Source of the DNA: Myxococcales bacterium
GTDB taxonomy: Bacteria > Myxococcota_A > Polyangia > Haliangiales > Haliangiaceae
Assembly: GCA_016794525.1 (NCBI GenBank)
Contig: JAEUJY010000146.1
Span: 62,001 to 126,000 of the forward strand
Direction of reading: 5' to 3'
DNA: 64,000 nucleotides
Both the position numbers and the translations under genes were made by a program. Under the pieces are notes generated by a model, which saw only the letters and a program-made list of their open reading frames with translations, ran no database searches and was not told the origin of the DNA. This document shows positions 6,221-63,872 of the stretch, in pieces (position 1 is the first letter of the stretch; each line of letters begins with the position of its first letter).

Positions 6221-6275
6221 CGTTTCGGGTGGGGGCCCCACGTCTTGTGGGGGAGGGTCCTTGCGAAAGACCCTC
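6221..6275 (-). terminator. Two-hairpin 3' element, copy 1 (after the HD-GYP gene)
   Basis: Read on the minus strand from 6275. Stem 1 is GAGGGTCTTT / AAGGACCCTC around CGC, with one G-U pair relative to other copies. Stem 2 is CCCCAC / GTGGGG around AAGAC. The conserved tail is CCCCCACCCGAAACG. The element begins 8 nt after the TGA at 6286-6284. Stem 2 differs from the other three copies on both sides and still pairs. Confidence 0.8.
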
Positions 6276-6283
6276 CAAAGGTC

Positions 6284-7849
6284 TCAGCGCGGCCAGATGC
6301 CGAGGTCGCCGCGCTTGGCGGCCTCGGTGCGCTCGTCCTCGAGGCGCCGCACGAACAGCGCCGCCAGCTCGGGGTCGAACTGGGTGCCGGCGCAGCGATC
6401 GATCTCGCCGATCGCGACCTCGTGGGGCAGGGCGCGGCGGTAGGCGCGGTCCGAGGTCATCGCGTCGTAGGCGTCGGCGATCGCGACGATCCGGCCGACC
6501 AGCGGGATGTTGTGCCCCGACAGCCCGCGCGGGTAGCCGCCGCCGTCCCACCACTCGTGGTGGCACCAGCAGCCGTCGATCAGCCCGTGCAGGCACGGCA
6601 CCGGCTCGAGGATCCGCTTGCCCTTCTCGGGGTGCTGGCGGAACACCCGCACCTCCTCGGCCGTCAGCTTGCCCGGCTTGTTGAGCATGTCGTAGCGCAC
6701 GCCGAGCTTGCCGATGTCGTGCATGACGCCGGCCTGGACGATCCGATCGACCTCGTCGTCGGGCAAGGTCAGGCCCCGCGCCAGGAGCTCGGCGTAGGTC
6801 GCGACCCGCTCCGAGTGGCCGCGGGTGTAGAGGTCGGTCTCCTCGAGCGCCTGGGCGAAGCCGGCCACCGTCGAGCGGAAGGTGTCCTCGAGGGTCTGGT
6901 TGGCGGCGCGCAGCTCGGTGTTGCGCAGCCGCAGGTCCTCGTACAGCCGCGCGTTGTCGATCGCGGTGGCGGCCCGCGACGACAGCACCGTCAGCATCTT
7001 GCGGTGGCCCTCGTCGAACTTCTTGCCGCGGGTGAAGCTGTAGACGTTGACGACGCCCTGCACGTAGGCGCCGATCTGCACCGGCACCGACAGGAACGAC
7101 ACCAGCTCCTTGCCGTCGGCGCCGCCCAGCGCGCCGGCGAAGAACCGGCTGGCGCTCTCGCCGTGCGAGACGACGGTCTGGCCGCGATCGAAGCGCTCGG
7201 TGAGCAGGTCGAACGACGGCGTCGGCGCGCGCTGCACCGCGCTGGCGTTGCCGACCATCTTCAGCCGCTCCTCGTACTGCCCCGACTTGCCGTCGCGCAG
7301 GTGCAGCGTGGCGACGTCGGCGCCGGTCTCCTTGACCGCGGCCTTGAGGATCGTGTCGAGGATGTGGTCGAGGTCGAGCGAGGTCGCGAGCGCCTCGCTC
7401 ACCTGGTAGATCGTCAGCGCCTCGCGCAGGCGGATGTTCTCGGCCTGCAGCTGCTGGCGGTACAGCCCGCGCTGGACGACGTGGATGACCTCCTCGACCT
7501 TGAACGGCTTGAGGACGTAGTCGTACGCGCCGCGCTTCATCGCCTCGATCGCGGTCTCGACCGTGCCGAAGCCGGTCATGATCACGGTCAGGACGTTGAG
7601 CCCCTCCTCGGCGATCTTCTCCAGGAGCTGCAGCCCGGACAGCCGCGGCATCTTGAGATCGGAGATGACCAGGTCGTAAGGACGCAGCCGGAGCTCGTCG
7701 AGGGCCTTCTGCCCGTCCTCGCAGGTCGCGACCTGGTACCCCTCGAGCTGCAGGAACTCGGCGAGGATCTCGCGGATCACCTTCTCGTCGTCGACGACGA
7801 GGATCCGGGCGGCGGCCGGTGGGCCGGAGCTGGGGGCCGACGCGTCCAC
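6284..7849 (-). CDS. Response regulator REC-GAF-HD-GYP, cyclic-di-GMP phosphodiesterase
   Basis: 521 residues. The REC domain spans 15-130 with acidic pair D20/D21 and phospho-acceptor D64 (ISDLKMPRL). A coiled linker follows, then a GAF domain at ~150-310. The HD-GYP domain spans ~330-520 and has HDIGKLG, HPEKGKRI and HHEWWDGGGYPRGL, so the catalytic HD and the GYP signature are intact. The predicted activity is hydrolysis of cyclic di-GMP to pGpG or GMP, controlled by an unlinked histidine kinase. It starts at GTG 7849, 10 nt after the lipoprotein stop, and is probably in its operon. The two-hairpin element follows its stop codon. Confidence 0.92.
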   Translation of the reverse strand: MDASAPSSGPPAAARILVVDDEKVIREILAEFLQLEGYQVATCEDGQKALDELRLRPYDLVISDLKMPRLSGLQLLEKIAEEGLNVLTVIMTGFGTVETAIEAMKRGAYDYVLKPFKVEEVIHVVQRGLYRQQLQAENIRLREALTIYQVSEALATSLDLDHILDTILKAAVKETGADVATLHLRDGKSGQYEERLKMVGNASAVQRAPTPSFDLLTERFDRGQTVVSHGESASRFFAGALGGADGKELVSFLSVPVQIGAYVQGVVNVYSFTRGKKFDEGHRKMLTVLSSRAATAIDNARLYEDLRLRNTELRAANQTLEDTFRSTVAGFAQALEETDLYTRGHSERVATYAELLARGLTLPDDEVDRIVQAGVMHDIGKLGVRYDMLNKPGKLTAEEVRVFRQHPEKGKRILEPVPCLHGLIDGCWCHHEWWDGGGYPRGLSGHNIPLVGRIVAIADAYDAMTSDRAYRRALPHEVAIGEIDRCAGTQFDPELAALFVRRLEDERTEAAKRGDLGIWPR

Positions 7850-40063: not shown

Positions 40064-40119
40064 CGTTTCGGGTGGGGGCCCCGGCGAATGCCGGGGGAGG
40101 GTCTTTGCGAAAGACCCTC
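40064..40119 (-). terminator. Two-hairpin 3' element, copy 2 (after the Cys-rich lipoprotein)
   Basis: Read on the minus strand from 40119. Stem 1 is GAGGGTCTTT / AAAGACCCTC around CGC, stem 2 is CCCCGGC / GCCGGGG around ATTC, and the tail is CCCCCACCCGAAACG. It begins 8 nt after the TGA at 40130-40128. Similarity to copy 4 continues past the tail (CCCGGAGCGTGGCC). Confidence 0.85.
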
Positions 40120-40127
40120 TACGTATC

Positions 40128-40637
40128 TCAGCCCGGGCAGTTCGGGTACGTCGGGTTGCCGACGCGACCCTCGAGGTTGCAGCAGATGTTCGTCGGGTTG
40201 GTCGCGTCGCACGCCTCCTTCTCGGGCAGCTGACCCGAGTCGGGGAGGACGACGTAGTCCTTGCAGATGCAGAACTTCTGGCAGCAGAACGGGCCCACCG
40301 TCAGCGCGACGCCGCAGGTGAAGCCGGTGACGCACGGCGACTCGGGGACCTTGTCGCAGTCGTCGTCGCTCTCGCAGGTGGCGGTGCACATGCCCTTGTT
40401 GGCCGACAGCGCCTGGAAGTCGTCGGGCGGGACCTTGTTGATGTCCATCGGCACCTTCAAGCAGGTGCGCGTCGGGCAGTCGAGCGAGGGCGAGCCCACC
40501 ACGGCCTGGTTGAGGCCGGGATCGTCGAGGCCGAGGTCGCAGATGCGGCCCACCGGGTTGTCGCTGCAGCCCGCCGCGAGGGCGGCCACGGCGACGGCGA
40601 TCCACATGGGGCGATGCGAACGAGCGGTGGTGTTCAT
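40128..40637 (-). CDS. Cys-rich lipoprotein of unknown function
   Basis: 169 residues. Lipobox AALAAGC with Cys at residue 24. The mature part has more than a dozen cysteines in patterns such as CTATCESDDDCDK, CCQKFCICK and ICCNLEG, suggesting a disulfide-rich surface domain like other myxobacterial lipoproteins. No catalytic motif is visible. It has its own promoter (TTGACT-N16-TATTAT) and a ~50-nt leader with GGAG. The two-hairpin element follows. Divergent from the gliding-motility locus. Confidence 0.78.
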   Translation of the reverse strand: MNTTARSHRPMWIAVAVAALAAGCSDNPVGRICDLGLDDPGLNQAVVGSPSLDCPTRTCLKVPMDINKVPPDDFQALSANKGMCTATCESDDDCDKVPESPCVTGFTCGVALTVGPFCCQKFCICKDYVVLPDSGQLPEKEACDATNPTNICCNLEGRVGNPTYPNCPG

Positions 40638-40695
40638 CGGGTTCCCTGGCTCCGTTGGCAGACGTTGGGCACAAGCTCGCCCGCGTCGAGCGGCG

Positions 40696-40723
40696 ATAAT
40701 AGAAGTCGAGGTGGCGAAGTCAA
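40696..40723 (-). promoter_or_regulatory. Promoter TTGACT-N16-TATTAT for the Cys-rich lipoprotein
   Basis: On the minus strand, TTGACT (40723-40718), a 16-nt spacer and TATTAT (40701-40696). The leader to ATG 40637 is about 50 nt and carries GGAG. Confidence 0.65.
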
Positions 40724-40915
40724 GGCGGGGCGCGATGTTCGATGGGTGCAGCGGGCTCGTCGATCCGTCACCGAAACACGATCGTGGCGAGATGCCACGG
40801 TGCCGTGCAACCGCGCCCGGCACGAGGTGTCCGGGTAGTGATGCTGGGTCTGTCGTCGCGACGGCGCGATCATCGCCGAACCACCGCGCGCGTGGTCCAA
40901 GGTCGCACGGGTGCC

Positions 40916-40945
40916 TTGACAATTCCGCGCGCGCACGTCGATGAT
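40916..40945 (+). promoter_or_regulatory. Promoter TTGACA-N18-GATGAT for the TPR gene at 41050
   Basis: TTGACA at 40916-40921, an 18-nt spacer and GATGAT at 40940-40945, followed by TCCGCCGCC as after the rpsP -10. The leader is about 100 nt and ends with GGAGGA 8 nt before ATG. Confidence 0.55.
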
Positions 40946-41049
40946 TCCGCCGCCCGAGAGGCCCGCGAAAGCGTTGGCGATGTCCCCCGCGCGGGGCGCC
41001 GCGTTGCTCGCTGTGCCGACTGCTCGGGCGCCCGTCTGGAGGAACCCTG

Positions 41050-42639
<1,590 letters not shown>

Positions 42640-42641
42640 GA

Positions 42642-42697
42642 GAGGGTTTTTCGCAAAAACCCTCCCCCGGCATTCGCCGGGGCCCCCACCCGAAACG
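42642..42697 (+). terminator. Two-hairpin 3' element, copy 3 (after the TPR gene)
   Basis: Stem 1 is GAGGGTTTTT / AAAAACCCTC around CGC: compared with copies 2 and 4, C changed to T on one arm and G to A on the other, keeping the pair. Stem 2 is CCCCGGC / GCCGGGG around ATTC. The tail is CCCCCACCCGAAACG. It starts 2 nt after the TAG stop. Confidence 0.85.
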
Positions 42698-48183: not shown

Positions 48184-50469
48184 ATGGCCGGTGGCAAAGT
48201 TCCTCTGACGTTCCGACTCTACAAGGGCGACGAGTTCCTCCGCGAGGAGAAGCTCACCCTCCCGGTCATCAAGGTCGGCAAGCTGTCGTCGTCGCACCTG
48301 CGGCTCGACGACAAGAACGTCAGCCGGATGCACGCCCTCATCGAGGTGACGGGCCCCGGCGACGTCAGCATCATCGACCTGTCGTCGACCACCGGCACCT
48401 TCGTCAATGGCCAGAAGGTCAACAAGGCGAAGCTGCAGTCCGGTGACTCGGTCGTCATCGGCGAGACCCGCATCGAGGTCACGATCGGTGGCGCCGAGGA
48501 GGACGACGACATCCCGACCCGCGTCCAGCCGCAGATCAGCGAGGCGGCGGAGGCGGTGATCGCGTCGACCCCGCGCCCGTCCGCGCCGCCGCCCCCGGCC
48601 GCCGCGATGGCCGCCCCGATGGCGCCGCCCCCGACGCCGGTCGCGCCGCCGCCGATGGCGGCGCGCGCCCCGGTGCCGCCGCCGATGGCCGCCAGCGCGG
48701 TGCCGGCGCCGTTCGGCATGTACAACGCCCCGGCCCAGGCCGCGCCGACCTTCGGCGCCAGCGGCTTCATGGCCGACCAGATCGACGTCCCGGGCTCGCG
48801 CTCGGTCGAGGTCGCGGCGATGCTCGGCAGCTCGGTGGTGTCGGTCAAGCACGCCATCAACCCGCGCGGCGGCAAGGTGTCGCCGACGACGTGGGCCTTC
48901 GTCGGGCTCGCCGGCCTGTTCCTGGTGGTCGGCCTGATCGGCTTCGGCCGCGGCTACTCGAACGCGTCGTTCAACGCCGGCAAGCGGCACCAGTGGGTCG
49001 AGGTCGAGAAGCGTCCGTCGTGGGCGTTCCGGCCGCGCAAGCTGGGCATCGAGAACGACATCATGATGTTCCTCGGCCTGCCGCTGGGCCTCGGCTTCGC
49101 GATCGCCGGCCTGATGCGCATGCGCGACGAGAAGCAGTCGAACCCGTTCTTCCGCATCGGGCAGGACCCGACCTGCGAGTACCCGACCAGCGACGCGCCG
49201 GCCGGCTCGTTCGCCCTGGTCGCCCCGTCGTCGAACCCGTCCGAGGACTTCGTCTTCAACTTCCTGCCCGGCATGGAGGGTGAGGTCGCGTCCGACGGGC
49301 AGTCGATGAGCCTGGCCGAGCTGCAGTCGCAGGGCCGCGCGCGGCCGTCGTCGACGGCGCCGGGCGGCCTCGAGATGACGATCCCGCAGAAGGCGCGCAT
49401 CCGGGTCAAGGCCGGGCAGACCACCTACCTGGTCACCTCGGTGCCGCAGCCCAAGCGCCAGCCGGTGCCGGTGCTGGCCGGCCTCGAGAGCCAGGTGCTG
49501 CTGTTCTTCCTCGGCTCGGCGGTCGCGCACATCGGCTTCTGGTTCATCCTGAAGAACGTCGACCCCGGCCAGGGCGGTGCGCCCACGGACATGTCGATGT
49601 CGGAGCAGTCGTCGTCGTCGGCCAAGACCGAGTCGATCGATGATCCGCCCCCGCCGGAGCCCGAGGAGACCGAGGAGGACGGCGAGGAGGAGTCGGGCGG
49701 CACCGGCACCGCGATGGCCCTCGAGGAGGGCAAGATGGGCAAGAAGGACTCGGACCGCGCCGAGGGCCAGTACAAGATGAAGAAGAACGCCGACCAGGAG
49801 CAGCTCGCCCGCACCCAGGCGATCGAGCAGGCCCGCACGGCCGGCGTCCTCGGTTCGCAGGTCTTCGCCCAGGGCGGCACGTTCGCGTCGATCACCGGCA
49901 CCGGTGACATCTCGAGCGGCTTCGACGACATGGACATCCAGGGCGGCCTCCTCGGCAACGAGGCGGGCGAGATGAACGGCGGCTTCGGCTTCGGCCGGTC
50001 GGGCTTCGGCCCGGGCGGCGGCGGCACCGGCTGGGGCACCATCGGCACCGGTCGCTACGGCACCATCGGCCACGGCTCGGGCACCGGCTCGGGCTACGGC
50101 GTGGGCAACGGCCGCGGCGGCATGCGCGGTCGTCAGTCGGCGGTCCCGTCGGTCCGCATCGGCCAGCCGCAGTCGGTCGGCGACCTCGACAAGGCCATCA
50201 TCCGCCGCTACATCAAGCGCAACATCCAGAAGATCTCGTACTGCTACGAGAAGCAGCTGCTCGCCTCGCCGAGCCTCGAGGGTACGGTCAACACCCAGTT
50301 CTTCATCAGCCCGAACGGCACCGTGACCACCGCCAACGCCTCGGGCGTCAACGGCGACGTCTCGAGCTGCGTGGCTGGCGTCATCAAGGGCATCGAGTTC
50401 CCGAAGCCGAAGGGCGGCGGCGGCGTGCAGGTCAACTACCCGTTCAACTTCCGCCCGACCGGCGGTTGA
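48184..50469 (+). CDS. gltG: Gliding-motility FHA/TonB-like protein GltG (PglI-like)
   Basis: 761 residues. An N-terminal FHA domain (KLSSSHLRLDDKNVSRMHAL, FVNGQKVNKAKL) binds phospho-Thr partners in the cytoplasm. A Pro/Ala linker spans ~130-180. Hydrophobic segments near 235-258, 295-312 and 435-455 follow, then an acidic stretch and a Gly-rich region (~590-650). The last ~100 residues are the AgmX/PglI C-terminal domain with KISYCYEKQL and VSSCVAGVIKGIEFP, a TonB-like periplasmic module with two conserved Cys. This matches Myxococcus GltG, which links the inner-membrane motor to the outer membrane. Confidence 0.85.
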   Translation: MAGGKVPLTFRLYKGDEFLREEKLTLPVIKVGKLSSSHLRLDDKNVSRMHALIEVTGPGDVSIIDLSSTTGTFVNGQKVNKAKLQSGDSVVIGETRIEVTIGGAEEDDDIPTRVQPQISEAAEAVIASTPRPSAPPPPAAAMAAPMAPPPTPVAPPPMAARAPVPPPMAASAVPAPFGMYNAPAQAAPTFGASGFMADQIDVPGSRSVEVAAMLGSSVVSVKHAINPRGGKVSPTTWAFVGLAGLFLVVGLIGFGRGYSNASFNAGKRHQWVEVEKRPSWAFRPRKLGIENDIMMFLGLPLGLGFAIAGLMRMRDEKQSNPFFRIGQDPTCEYPTSDAPAGSFALVAPSSNPSEDFVFNFLPGMEGEVASDGQSMSLAELQSQGRARPSSTAPGGLEMTIPQKARIRVKAGQTTYLVTSVPQPKRQPVPVLAGLESQVLLFFLGSAVAHIGFWFILKNVDPGQGGAPTDMSMSEQSSSSAKTESIDDPPPPEPEETEEDGEEESGGTGTAMALEEGKMGKKDSDRAEGQYKMKKNADQEQLARTQAIEQARTAGVLGSQVFAQGGTFASITGTGDISSGFDDMDIQGGLLGNEAGEMNGGFGFGRSGFGPGGGGTGWGTIGTGRYGTIGHGSGTGSGYGVGNGRGGMRGRQSAVPSVRIGQPQSVGDLDKAIIRRYIKRNIQKISYCYEKQLLASPSLEGTVNTQFFISPNGTVTTANASGVNGDVSSCVAGVIKGIEFPKPKGGGGVQVNYPFNFRPTGG

Positions 50470-50494
50470 TCGGGAGCGAGGGCGCGAGACCTGA

Positions 50495-50550
50495 GAGGGT
50501 CTTTCACAAAGACCCTCCCCCGGCATTCGCCGGGGCCCCCCCCCGAAACG
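50495..50550 (+). terminator. Two-hairpin 3' element, copy 4 (after gltG)
   Basis: Stem 1 is GAGGGTCTTT / AAAGACCCTC around CAC, stem 2 is CCCCGGC / GCCGGGG around ATTC, and the tail is CCCCCCCCCGAAACG. It begins 25 nt after the gltG stop and is preceded by GAGACCT, which resembles the sequence that overlaps the stop codon of copy 1. Confidence 0.85.
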
Positions 50551-50598
50551 ACCCGGAGCGTGGCCACCATCGCGGGGGGCCACACGGCGTTTCGGGGG
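50540..50598 (+). repeat. Nested inverted repeat continuing from element copy 4
   Basis: CCCCCGAAACG (50540-50550) pairs over 11 bp with CGTTTCGGGGG (50588-50598). Inside it, GTGGCC (50560-50565) pairs with GGCCAC (50578-50583). The outer arm is the conserved tail of the two-hairpin element, so the tail itself can be drawn into a third stem in this copy. Confidence 0.7.
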
Positions 50599-50624
50599 AT
50601 GGTTGCGGGGCCGGATGCGGGGAC

Positions 50625-50730
50625 GGGATCGGGATCGGGATCGGGATCGGGATCGGGATCGGGATCGGGATCGGGATCGGGATCGGGATCGGGATCCGAA
50701 ACCGGATCGGGCACGGGCACGGGCACGGGC
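50625..50730 (+). repeat. G-tract hexanucleotide array C (GGGATC x12, then GGGCAC x3)
   Basis: Twelve perfect GGGATC units (50625-50696) are followed by CGAAACCGGATC and three GGGCAC units with a final GGGCGT. GGG recurs every 6 nt over 70 bases, the longest G3N3 run in the window. It lies 3' of gltG, in the plus orientation. Confidence 0.9.
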
Positions 50731-50841
50731 GTCCGGAGACGTCAGGAGATTTTCGTGAGCCGTGCTTTACCTCACGGGTCGCTCGGTCTACGGTTCGGCC
50801 CACGTCGTCGTCGGTGCGCACGCCGCACCTGGAGGCACTCG

Positions 50842-51789
50842 ATGCGTTCGTTCTTCCGCACTCTGGCTCCGTTTGCGCTGGTGCTCGCCATCGGTTGTGG
50901 CGACGCGGGTCGCAAGGAATCGATCCAGCGCACCAACGCCGGCCACAAGGCCCTTGGCGCCAAGCAGTACGACTCGGCGATCAACGAGTACAAGGACGCG
51001 ATCGCCGCGTACCGCGACAACCACGCGGCCCACTACTACATGGGCGAGGCGTACCGCGGGAAGAAGATGTTCGACAAGGCCGCCGAGGGCTACGCCGAGG
51101 CGGTGCGCATCAAGCCCGACAACGTCATGTACCAGATGATGTACGGCGTCGCGCTCTACGAAGAGGCCGTGCAGAAGGCCCGCGAGGACGCGGCGCGGCT
51201 GCAGAACAAGAAGCCGGCCGAGGTCGACGTCGACTACTCGCTCATCAACTTCGATCAGGCCGAGCAGCACCTGCAGGCCGCGGTCAAGCTCAACGCCGAC
51301 CTGTTCCTCGAGCACGCGTACCTCGGCCGCATCTACCGTGCGACCGGCCGGCCGCGCGAGGCCGCCGAGGAGTTCTCGAAGGCCATCGTCGCCAACCCGC
51401 GCGAGTGGGCGCCGTACGTCGCGCTCAGCGAGCTGTACCGCAAGTGGGACTACCCCAGCGAGGCGATCCAGGTGCTGATCCAGGGCGTCGAGCACGTGCC
51501 CGGCCAGGTCGACAAGGCCGAGCTGCACTACCAGCTCGGCATGGCCTACACCGAGAAGCAGGACGACGCGAAGGCGATCGAGTCCTTCACCGCCGCGATC
51601 GACGCGTCGAAGGACAAGCACATCGCCAAGTTCATGCGCGGCCAGGCGTACCTGCGCAAGGGCGACCTCAAGGCGGCCGACAAGGACCTCGAGGCGTTCG
51701 CCAAGGCCGCCGGCCCGGCCGACGCCACCAACAAGTCGATCGCCCAGAAGATGCGCTTCTCGATCGCCGCGAAGCTGCAAGGCGGCTGA
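50842..51789 (+). CDS. TPR lipoprotein in the gliding-motility locus
   Basis: 315 residues. Lipobox LVLAIGC with Cys at residue 19, then about six TPR units (NAGHKALGAKQYDSAINEY, HYYMGEAYRGKKMFDKAAEG, EHAYLGRIYRATGRPREAAE, LHYQLGMAYTEKQDDAKAIE). Probably an outer-membrane or periplasmic scaffold. It occupies the place where Myxococcus has the barrel gene gltH, but it is not a barrel. GGAGG lies 6 nt before the ATG. A 9-bp hairpin follows its stop codon. Confidence 0.82.
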   Translation: MRSFFRTLAPFALVLAIGCGDAGRKESIQRTNAGHKALGAKQYDSAINEYKDAIAAYRDNHAAHYYMGEAYRGKKMFDKAAEGYAEAVRIKPDNVMYQMMYGVALYEEAVQKAREDAARLQNKKPAEVDVDYSLINFDQAEQHLQAAVKLNADLFLEHAYLGRIYRATGRPREAAEEFSKAIVANPREWAPYVALSELYRKWDYPSEAIQVLIQGVEHVPGQVDKAELHYQLGMAYTEKQDDAKAIESFTAAIDASKDKHIAKFMRGQAYLRKGDLKAADKDLEAFAKAAGPADATNKSIAQKMRFSIAAKLQGG

Positions 51790-51820
51790 GACCCGAGCGA
51801 TCGCGCGCTGGTGTGACTGG

Positions 51821-51843
51821 ACGCCCCGCTCGATGCGGGGCGT
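51821..51843 (+). terminator. Hairpin after the TPR lipoprotein
   Basis: ACGCCCCGC (51821-51829) and GCGGGGCGT (51835-51843) form a perfect 9-bp stem around TCGAT, 31 nt after the stop codon. TCGAGGTTT follows, a weak T-tract. Confidence 0.6.
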
Positions 51844-51853
51844 TCGAGGTTTC

Positions 51854-51941
51854 GGGGGACGGGATCGGGGAGGGGGACGGGGACGGGATCGGGATCCGGA
51901 TCCGGATCCGGGCACGGGCACGGGCACGGGCACGGGCACGG
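51854..51941 (+). repeat. G-tract hexanucleotide array D
   Basis: GGGGGAC, GGGATC, GGGGAG and similar units lead to three GGATCC repeats and then five GGGCAC units. The order (GGGATC-type, then CCGGATC, then GGGCAC) is that of arrays A, B and C. It lies between the TPR lipoprotein gene and the giant TPR gene. Confidence 0.85.
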
Positions 51942-52031
51942 ACCGTCGAGGCGAGGAAAAATCGACGGGGCTGGTGCTTCGCGGCCCGAGGGGGTAGAAG
52001 TTTCCCTGCAAGTGCGGGAGGATGCGCGCAG

Positions 52032-63872
<11,841 letters not shown>

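Follow-up and report, generated by a model that had tools for sequence, protein, structure and literature searches.

Introduction

The closest described counterparts of the element reported here are REPs. According to the excerpted text of PMC12306157 (citing Liang 2015), REPs of E. coli cause ribosomes to stall if they lie no more than 15 nt from a stop codon. The same excerpt gives two counts for this species: 260 of the 496 REPs in one set are proposed to act in translation near the stop codon, and 446 of the 4,072 REPs in another set lie within 15 nt of one. For P. entomophila and S. wittichi, the excerpted part of PMC3733652 places most REPs between convergent ORFs at less than 20 bp from the 3' ends, and REPs between unidirectional ORFs near the 3' end of the upstream ORF. 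Since the REPs of these three species show it, proximity to gene ends is not new in kind.

The family described here shares with the stop-proximal REPs of E. coli (Liang, Rudd and Deutscher 2015, as cited in the excerpt of PMC12306157) that it consists of high-copy extragenic hairpins. Unlike them, it has two abutting hairpins followed by a C-rich tail, is strongly biased to one orientation in the window genome (G000) and its sister (G006), has its matches to a broad covariance model (R2) confined to one class, and is also found behind tRNA genes. With the GTAG- and CGTC-tagged REP superfamilies, as far as the excerpt of PMC3733652 describes them, it has in common that families are genome-specific and that their members often lie near the 3' end of the preceding ORF. 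In contrast to these superfamilies, a tag precedes hairpin 1 in 0 of 200 copies (the 3' side offers no independent test, as copies were picked for their C-run), the arrays read are direct rather than inverted dimers, and four carrier genomes have no Y1 transposase matches. Intrinsic terminators likewise place a GC-rich hairpin just behind genes, but the copies here have no U-tract and show long sequence identity to one another. As far as these literature searches show, novelty lies in the two-hairpin unit and its C-rich frame, in the orientation that prevails and in the host group; no report of an element of this kind in myxobacteria was found in the open-licence literature at title and abstract level.

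Results

Four copies in the window

The window, that is, the whole 64,000-nt stretch analyzed, comes from a Myxococcales genome of 9.8 Mb (G000). The first-pass annotation had described four copies of a two-hairpin element in it, all in sense orientation and 2-25 nt past a stop codon; the sequence confirmed coordinates, strands and distances (Table 1). The stem changes are also as it had read them. Hairpin 1 has the arms TTTTT/AAAAA in copy 3, compensated relative to TCTTT/AAAGA in the others, and copy 1 has TCTTT/AAGGA with one T.G wobble (G-U in RNA) together with the CCCCAC/GTGGGG stem. The tail, described as nearly fixed, is so in its C-rich part, whereas the GAAACG end is limited to subfamilies within this genus; copy 4 has the tail CCCCCCCCC and also a changed loop. 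A 17-nt tail pattern with up to three mismatches has 4 matches in the window, where shuffles predict 0.53.

Table 1. Copies of the element in the window, the genes in front of them and neighboring features.
Feature	Position	Strand	Description
Copy 1	6221..6275	-	One wobble pair in hairpin 1; CCCCAC/GTGGGG subfamily by its hairpin 2; tail CCCCCACCCGAAACG; covariance-model match G000:C143:68216-68281
Gene before copy 1	6284..7849	-	Response regulator, GAF and HD domains; hairpin 1 follows 8 nt after the stop codon
Copy 2	40064..40119	-	CCCCGGC/GCCGGGG subfamily; model match
ORF before copy 2	40128..41129	-	Hairpin 1 follows 8 nt after the stop codon; start of the ORF uncertain
Copy 3	42642..42697	+	Hairpin 1 TTTTT/AAAAA (compensated), hairpin 2 CCCCGGC/GCCGGGG; model match
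Gene before copy 3	41050..42639	+	Tetratricopeptide repeats; hairpin 1 follows 2 nt after the stop codon
Copy 4	50495..50550	+	Loop A replacing G; tail CCCCCCCCC; model match
Gene before copy 4	48184..50469	+	FHA domain; hairpin 1 follows 25 nt after the stop codon
GGGATC hexamer repeat	50620..50711		15.5 copies, just downstream of copy 4
Overlapping ORFs	50466..63872	+ and -	Plus-strand ORF of 4468 codons overlaps minus-strand ORF of 4101 codons; perhaps one very large gene in GC-rich DNA

The ORF before copy 2 is given about 160 codons by the codon-usage gene caller and has no Pfam match; a homologous gene in G006 likewise carries the element. Six-base repeats similar to the one behind copy 4 were seen, by reading, after several copies elsewhere in the genome.

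Architecture and copy number

The unit consists of hairpin 1 (GAGGG..CCCTC), hairpin 2 (CCCC..GGGG), which abuts it without a linker, and a tail CCCCC[A/T]CCC. Median folding energies are -14.3 and -13.4 kcal/mol. The first-pass annotation had proposed a covariance-model search, and a model built from 33 copies (R1) detected the element in G000 and in G006, with weak matches in one genome of another family. With up to 150 candidates scored per scan, R1 yielded at least 141 matches in G000 (E ≤ 0.01). The broader model R2 yielded at least 150 (E ≤ 0.001), with 28 outside the 141, so that the union amounts to at least 169 matches, including a few array units whose hairpin 1 is incomplete. When hairpin 2 and the tail were combined into an exact pattern, G000 had 68 occurrences, and none of the reversed control.

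Their stems divide the G000 copies into subfamilies, among them CCCCAC/GTGGGG, CCCCGGC/GCCGGGG and a longer one, which contains GAAGGGG and whose tail is CCCCAACCC. Within one genome, the copies of a subfamily are near-identical. A variant at four loci (L288, L294, L296 and L299) has its tail swapped for CCCAGGTGG(A/C)GGCAGG..., perhaps by fusion with another repeat, and in Sandaracinaceae-type genomes (L112, L147, L301 and others) another hairpin of similar kind, around GCGCGGGGCCCCAGCCCC, comes after the element. The idea that the unit generally includes a third hairpin, with the ending CGTTTTCGG, was rejected, as this hairpin is present after 12 of 200 copies only.

Distribution

Within the genus, R1 found carriers in 2 of 7 genomes: besides G000, the sister genome G006 has 109 matches, and G001-G005 have none among the best 145 candidates of each. 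G039, from another family, has 6 weak matches. A generic pattern was present in 5 of 282 genomes of the phylum, its reversed control giving one match in each of 2 other genomes. R2 detected the element in at least 18 of 377 genomes, all in the class of the window genome and spread over five families, with stems that differ in sequence; absences in this survey are weak because 13 candidates (the best) were scored per genome, under strict filters. In a named collection, at least 60 stretches matched, and the titles of the matches listed name myxobacteria in 47 cases, Deltaproteobacteria in 8, a bacterium in 1 and other groups in 4.

Rfam gave no match for the whole window at gathering score. When E-values were relaxed for five loci and the region of copy 3, every match stayed below its gathering score. 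A viral collection contained one exact match, in which hairpin 1 is absent (by reading); a phage origin was rejected on this ground.

Pairing and covariation of the two hairpins

The pattern used for the named collection fixed neither the left arm of hairpin 1 nor the interior of hairpin 2. Even so, a perfect hairpin 1 of at least 7 pairs was present in 54 of 71 distinct matches, as opposed to 0 of 71 with shuffled upstream bases, and a hairpin 2 of at least 6 pairs in 49 of 71, as opposed to 5 of 71 after shuffling. The 17 matches without hairpin 1 comprise 12 in loci of a G006-like MAG, in which inner array units lack the left arm of this hairpin, a near miss (L125) and four outsiders (L123, L133, L151, L159).

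A parsed set of 217 rows, reduced to 200 by removing duplicates and including two chance-like rows (L123, L151), provided 95 distinct arm combinations. Beyond the outer three pairs, 98.3% of positions in hairpin 1 and 96.2% in hairpin 2 are paired, versus 72.7% and 47.3% when arms are shuffled among copies; the two observed rates are partly forced because the parser accepts hairpins with up to one mismatch, and the variety of pair types is not. In a model-fitted alignment of 58 matches, which favors structure by construction, 99.1% of cells pair and 10 of 15 pairs changed on both sides, and none of 500 shuffles reached any of five measures. A MAFFT alignment misplaced the arms and was set aside. 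The excess of compensatory changes that the first-pass annotation had named beforehand is therefore large among the copies, with the arms free in the search or not, and compensatory changes keep the fold across genomes.

Departures from Watson-Crick pairing at inner pairs of distinct arms were G-U in 9 and A-C in 12 cases (p = 0.66). An excess of G-U would be expected if sense-strand RNA were selected, and no such asymmetry is observed. Because both are equally rare, covariation is no proof of RNA and pairing could be a property of DNA, in which a DNA hairpin or arm-correcting copying could be its source. The proposed selection on an RNA structure thus holds as far as a fold-constrained repeat at gene 3' ends in sense orientation is concerned; the selected molecule may be RNA or DNA.

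Placement behind genes

Genes for the placement counts were predicted with a simple codon-usage gene caller. Among the 141 R1 copies of G000, 132 have an upstream neighbor in the sense orientation and none lies inside a predicted gene. The sense stop codon stands -4 to 15 nt before hairpin 1 in 105 copies, 57 of them with a spacing of 6-8 nt. Where both neighbors were called, 100 of 132 copies are in the -4 to 15 nt range; random positions and orientations within the same gaps would be expected to put 18.4 there. Non-random placement with respect to gene ends and strand, also named beforehand, hence holds in G000.

Twenty-six sense copies are farther away, and 20 of them were flagged with an intervening hairpin or unit (two flags, for gaps of 218 and 348 nt, are provisional). 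The remaining 9 of 141 comprise three at contig ends, with no upstream gene called, and six with an antisense upstream neighbor; one of these six stands behind tRNA-Cys, and at three others (L096, L218, L258) a sense ORF that ends at this point was picked up when the ORF search was made more permissive. Among the 28 additional G000 copies, 23 were looked at: 17 fall in the -4 to 15 nt range, another follows tRNA-Gln, and a further one overlaps with a predicted ORF. The element is thus found just behind tRNA-Cys and tRNA-Gln genes of G000; in G108 and G256, it was seen behind genes for tRNA-Gly and tRNA-Leu. At one place in G000, two convergent genes each have a copy in their own sense (C112:25050, plus strand, and C112:25199, minus strand). 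No functional theme was seen among the upstream genes: 99 proteins matched 129 Pfam families (E ≤ 1e-5), the commonest in 4 of the proteins.

In G006, 44 copies (of 109 matches) were parsed; 16 of the G006 stretches had been picked for an array-like look. All have a sense upstream neighbor, 26 of the 44 within 15 nt, and most of those farther off stand behind another unit or hairpin (by reading). In both G000 and G006, the majority of copies (or, for arrays, the first unit) directly follow a gene end in the sense of the gene. For the other genomes, we used 43 copies from 39 of 60 named loci, leaving out the G006-like MAG and four chance-like records. Here, 17 of 43 copies are within 15 nt in sense, 12 have an antisense upstream neighbor, one is inside a predicted gene and 5 have no upstream gene called. 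Placement is loose in Prado145 (2 of 10) and nzgw260 (0 of 4) and tight in NCgw80 (3 of 3) and SSF7 (8 of 15).

Shared gene ends and arrays

Occupancy is partly shared between the two carriers of the genus. Twelve of 36 sampled element-bearing G006 genes have a G000 homolog with an element, where about 2% would be expected for independent placement (our own estimate from 141 copies and roughly 8000 genes). The hairpin-2 arms differ in 9 of these 12 shared gene ends (by reading).

The ssb gene is an example. G000 and G006 carry elements of different subfamilies behind it, and by reading there is no element in the next 200 nt in G001-G005; the end being bare in five congeners, the element is not needed there. 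The sequence after the stop codon differs among the congeners (by reading), and no aligned empty site was found from which the terminal inverted repeats and target-site duplications of a MITE could be read.

Tandem arrays are direct, not inverted, in all cases read. At one G006 locus (L062, 858-1503), four copies follow a single gene with a period of 156 bp and with hairpin 2 and tail in each unit; in G006 arrays, later units are often without the left arm of hairpin 1.

Y1 transposase matches number 17 in G000, 1 in G173 and 1 to 10 in the non-carriers G001-G005, and 0 in the carriers G006, G039, G215 and G224. Mobilization by RAYTs is not supported, as these four carrier genomes are without such matches. 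Integron-like sites were considered and provisionally dropped, the copies being dispersed.

Discussion

Among the options raised in the first-pass annotation, a REP-like repeat fits best. In the broad sense of many extragenic palindromic copies per genome, the family is REP-like. We consider it about an even call that these dispersed repeats, where they stand at gene ends, act like the stop-proximal REPs of E. coli, a function suggested by analogy. A copy would then form the first part of the 3' untranslated RNA. As with REPs, a rigid obstacle immediately behind the final codon, or behind the end of the tRNA, might hold off 3'-to-5' exonucleases, so that the RNA end would be marked or protected, and on mRNA it might possibly slow terminating ribosomes. 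The copies behind tRNA genes do not fit a purely ribosome-stalling role. The family may have spread by some copying process, with gene-end copies being retained or gene ends being preferred as targets.

A bolder version, which we regard as rather unlikely, is a class-wide RNA 3'-end element that would form or fix the ends of mRNAs and tRNAs without a U-tract, through a factor reading CCCTC-CCCC..GGGG-CCCCC[A/U]CCC, and that would be swapped at the same gene ends by rival subfamilies.

An ordinary family of intrinsic terminators is not supported, as there is no U-tract: 0 of 141 copies have TTTT in the stretch that runs from the end of hairpin 1 to 5 nt beyond the element (a parallel count of 0 of 200 is partly forced, as copies were picked for their C-run). 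An unusual terminator, in which hairpin 1 or 2 and the C-rich tail would stop RNA polymerase or recruit a termination factor without a U-tract, would agree with the strong hairpins, with the position right behind stop codons and tRNA genes, and with the convergent genes that each have a copy in their own sense. It is difficult to reconcile with a separate stretch containing CGTTTTCGG or CGTTTCGG after 12 of 200 copies (controls 0 and 0), with a G363 copy (L323) that follows a canonical-looking terminator (by reading), and with an element that stands behind about 2% of genes by our own estimate and was not found in congeners. We therefore think such a terminator improbable.

It is similarly doubtful that the family is a selfish insertion repeat, which would target gene ends one way round without benefit to the host and would owe its covariation to hairpin-mediated copying or arm correction of DNA. 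The patchy distribution (2 of 7 genomes of the genus with R1, at least 18 of 377 with R2), the near-identical subfamilies within a genome, the tandem arrays, the empty ssb ends of five congeners, the lack of a G-U excess and the loose placement in some other genomes are all in its favor. However, the occupancy common to G006 and G000, far above the chance level and mostly with differing hairpin-2 arms, and the stem design kept across families speak against it, and no mobilizing enzyme was identified in a search that covered Y1 transposases.

The least probable alternative, and a quite improbable one, is that transcribed genes need a DNA site downstream of them, double-stranded or cruciform, to which a topoisomerase or some other protein might bind: arms without an excess of G-U over A-C are compatible with it, and REPs have been hypothesized to act in DNA supercoiling (PMC3733652, excerpted text), but the sense orientation and the spacing of mostly 6-8 nt from the stop codon would not be expected.

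To return to the REP-like reading, the function of REPs is still debated, and the present family, from another phylum, has one orientation that prevails and a stop spacing of mostly 6-8 nt. With copies behind tRNA genes, differing subfamilies at shared gene ends and bare ssb ends in congeners, it offers a natural comparison system for the effect of hairpins just behind the stop codon on RNA and protein output. The two covariance models could also serve annotation.
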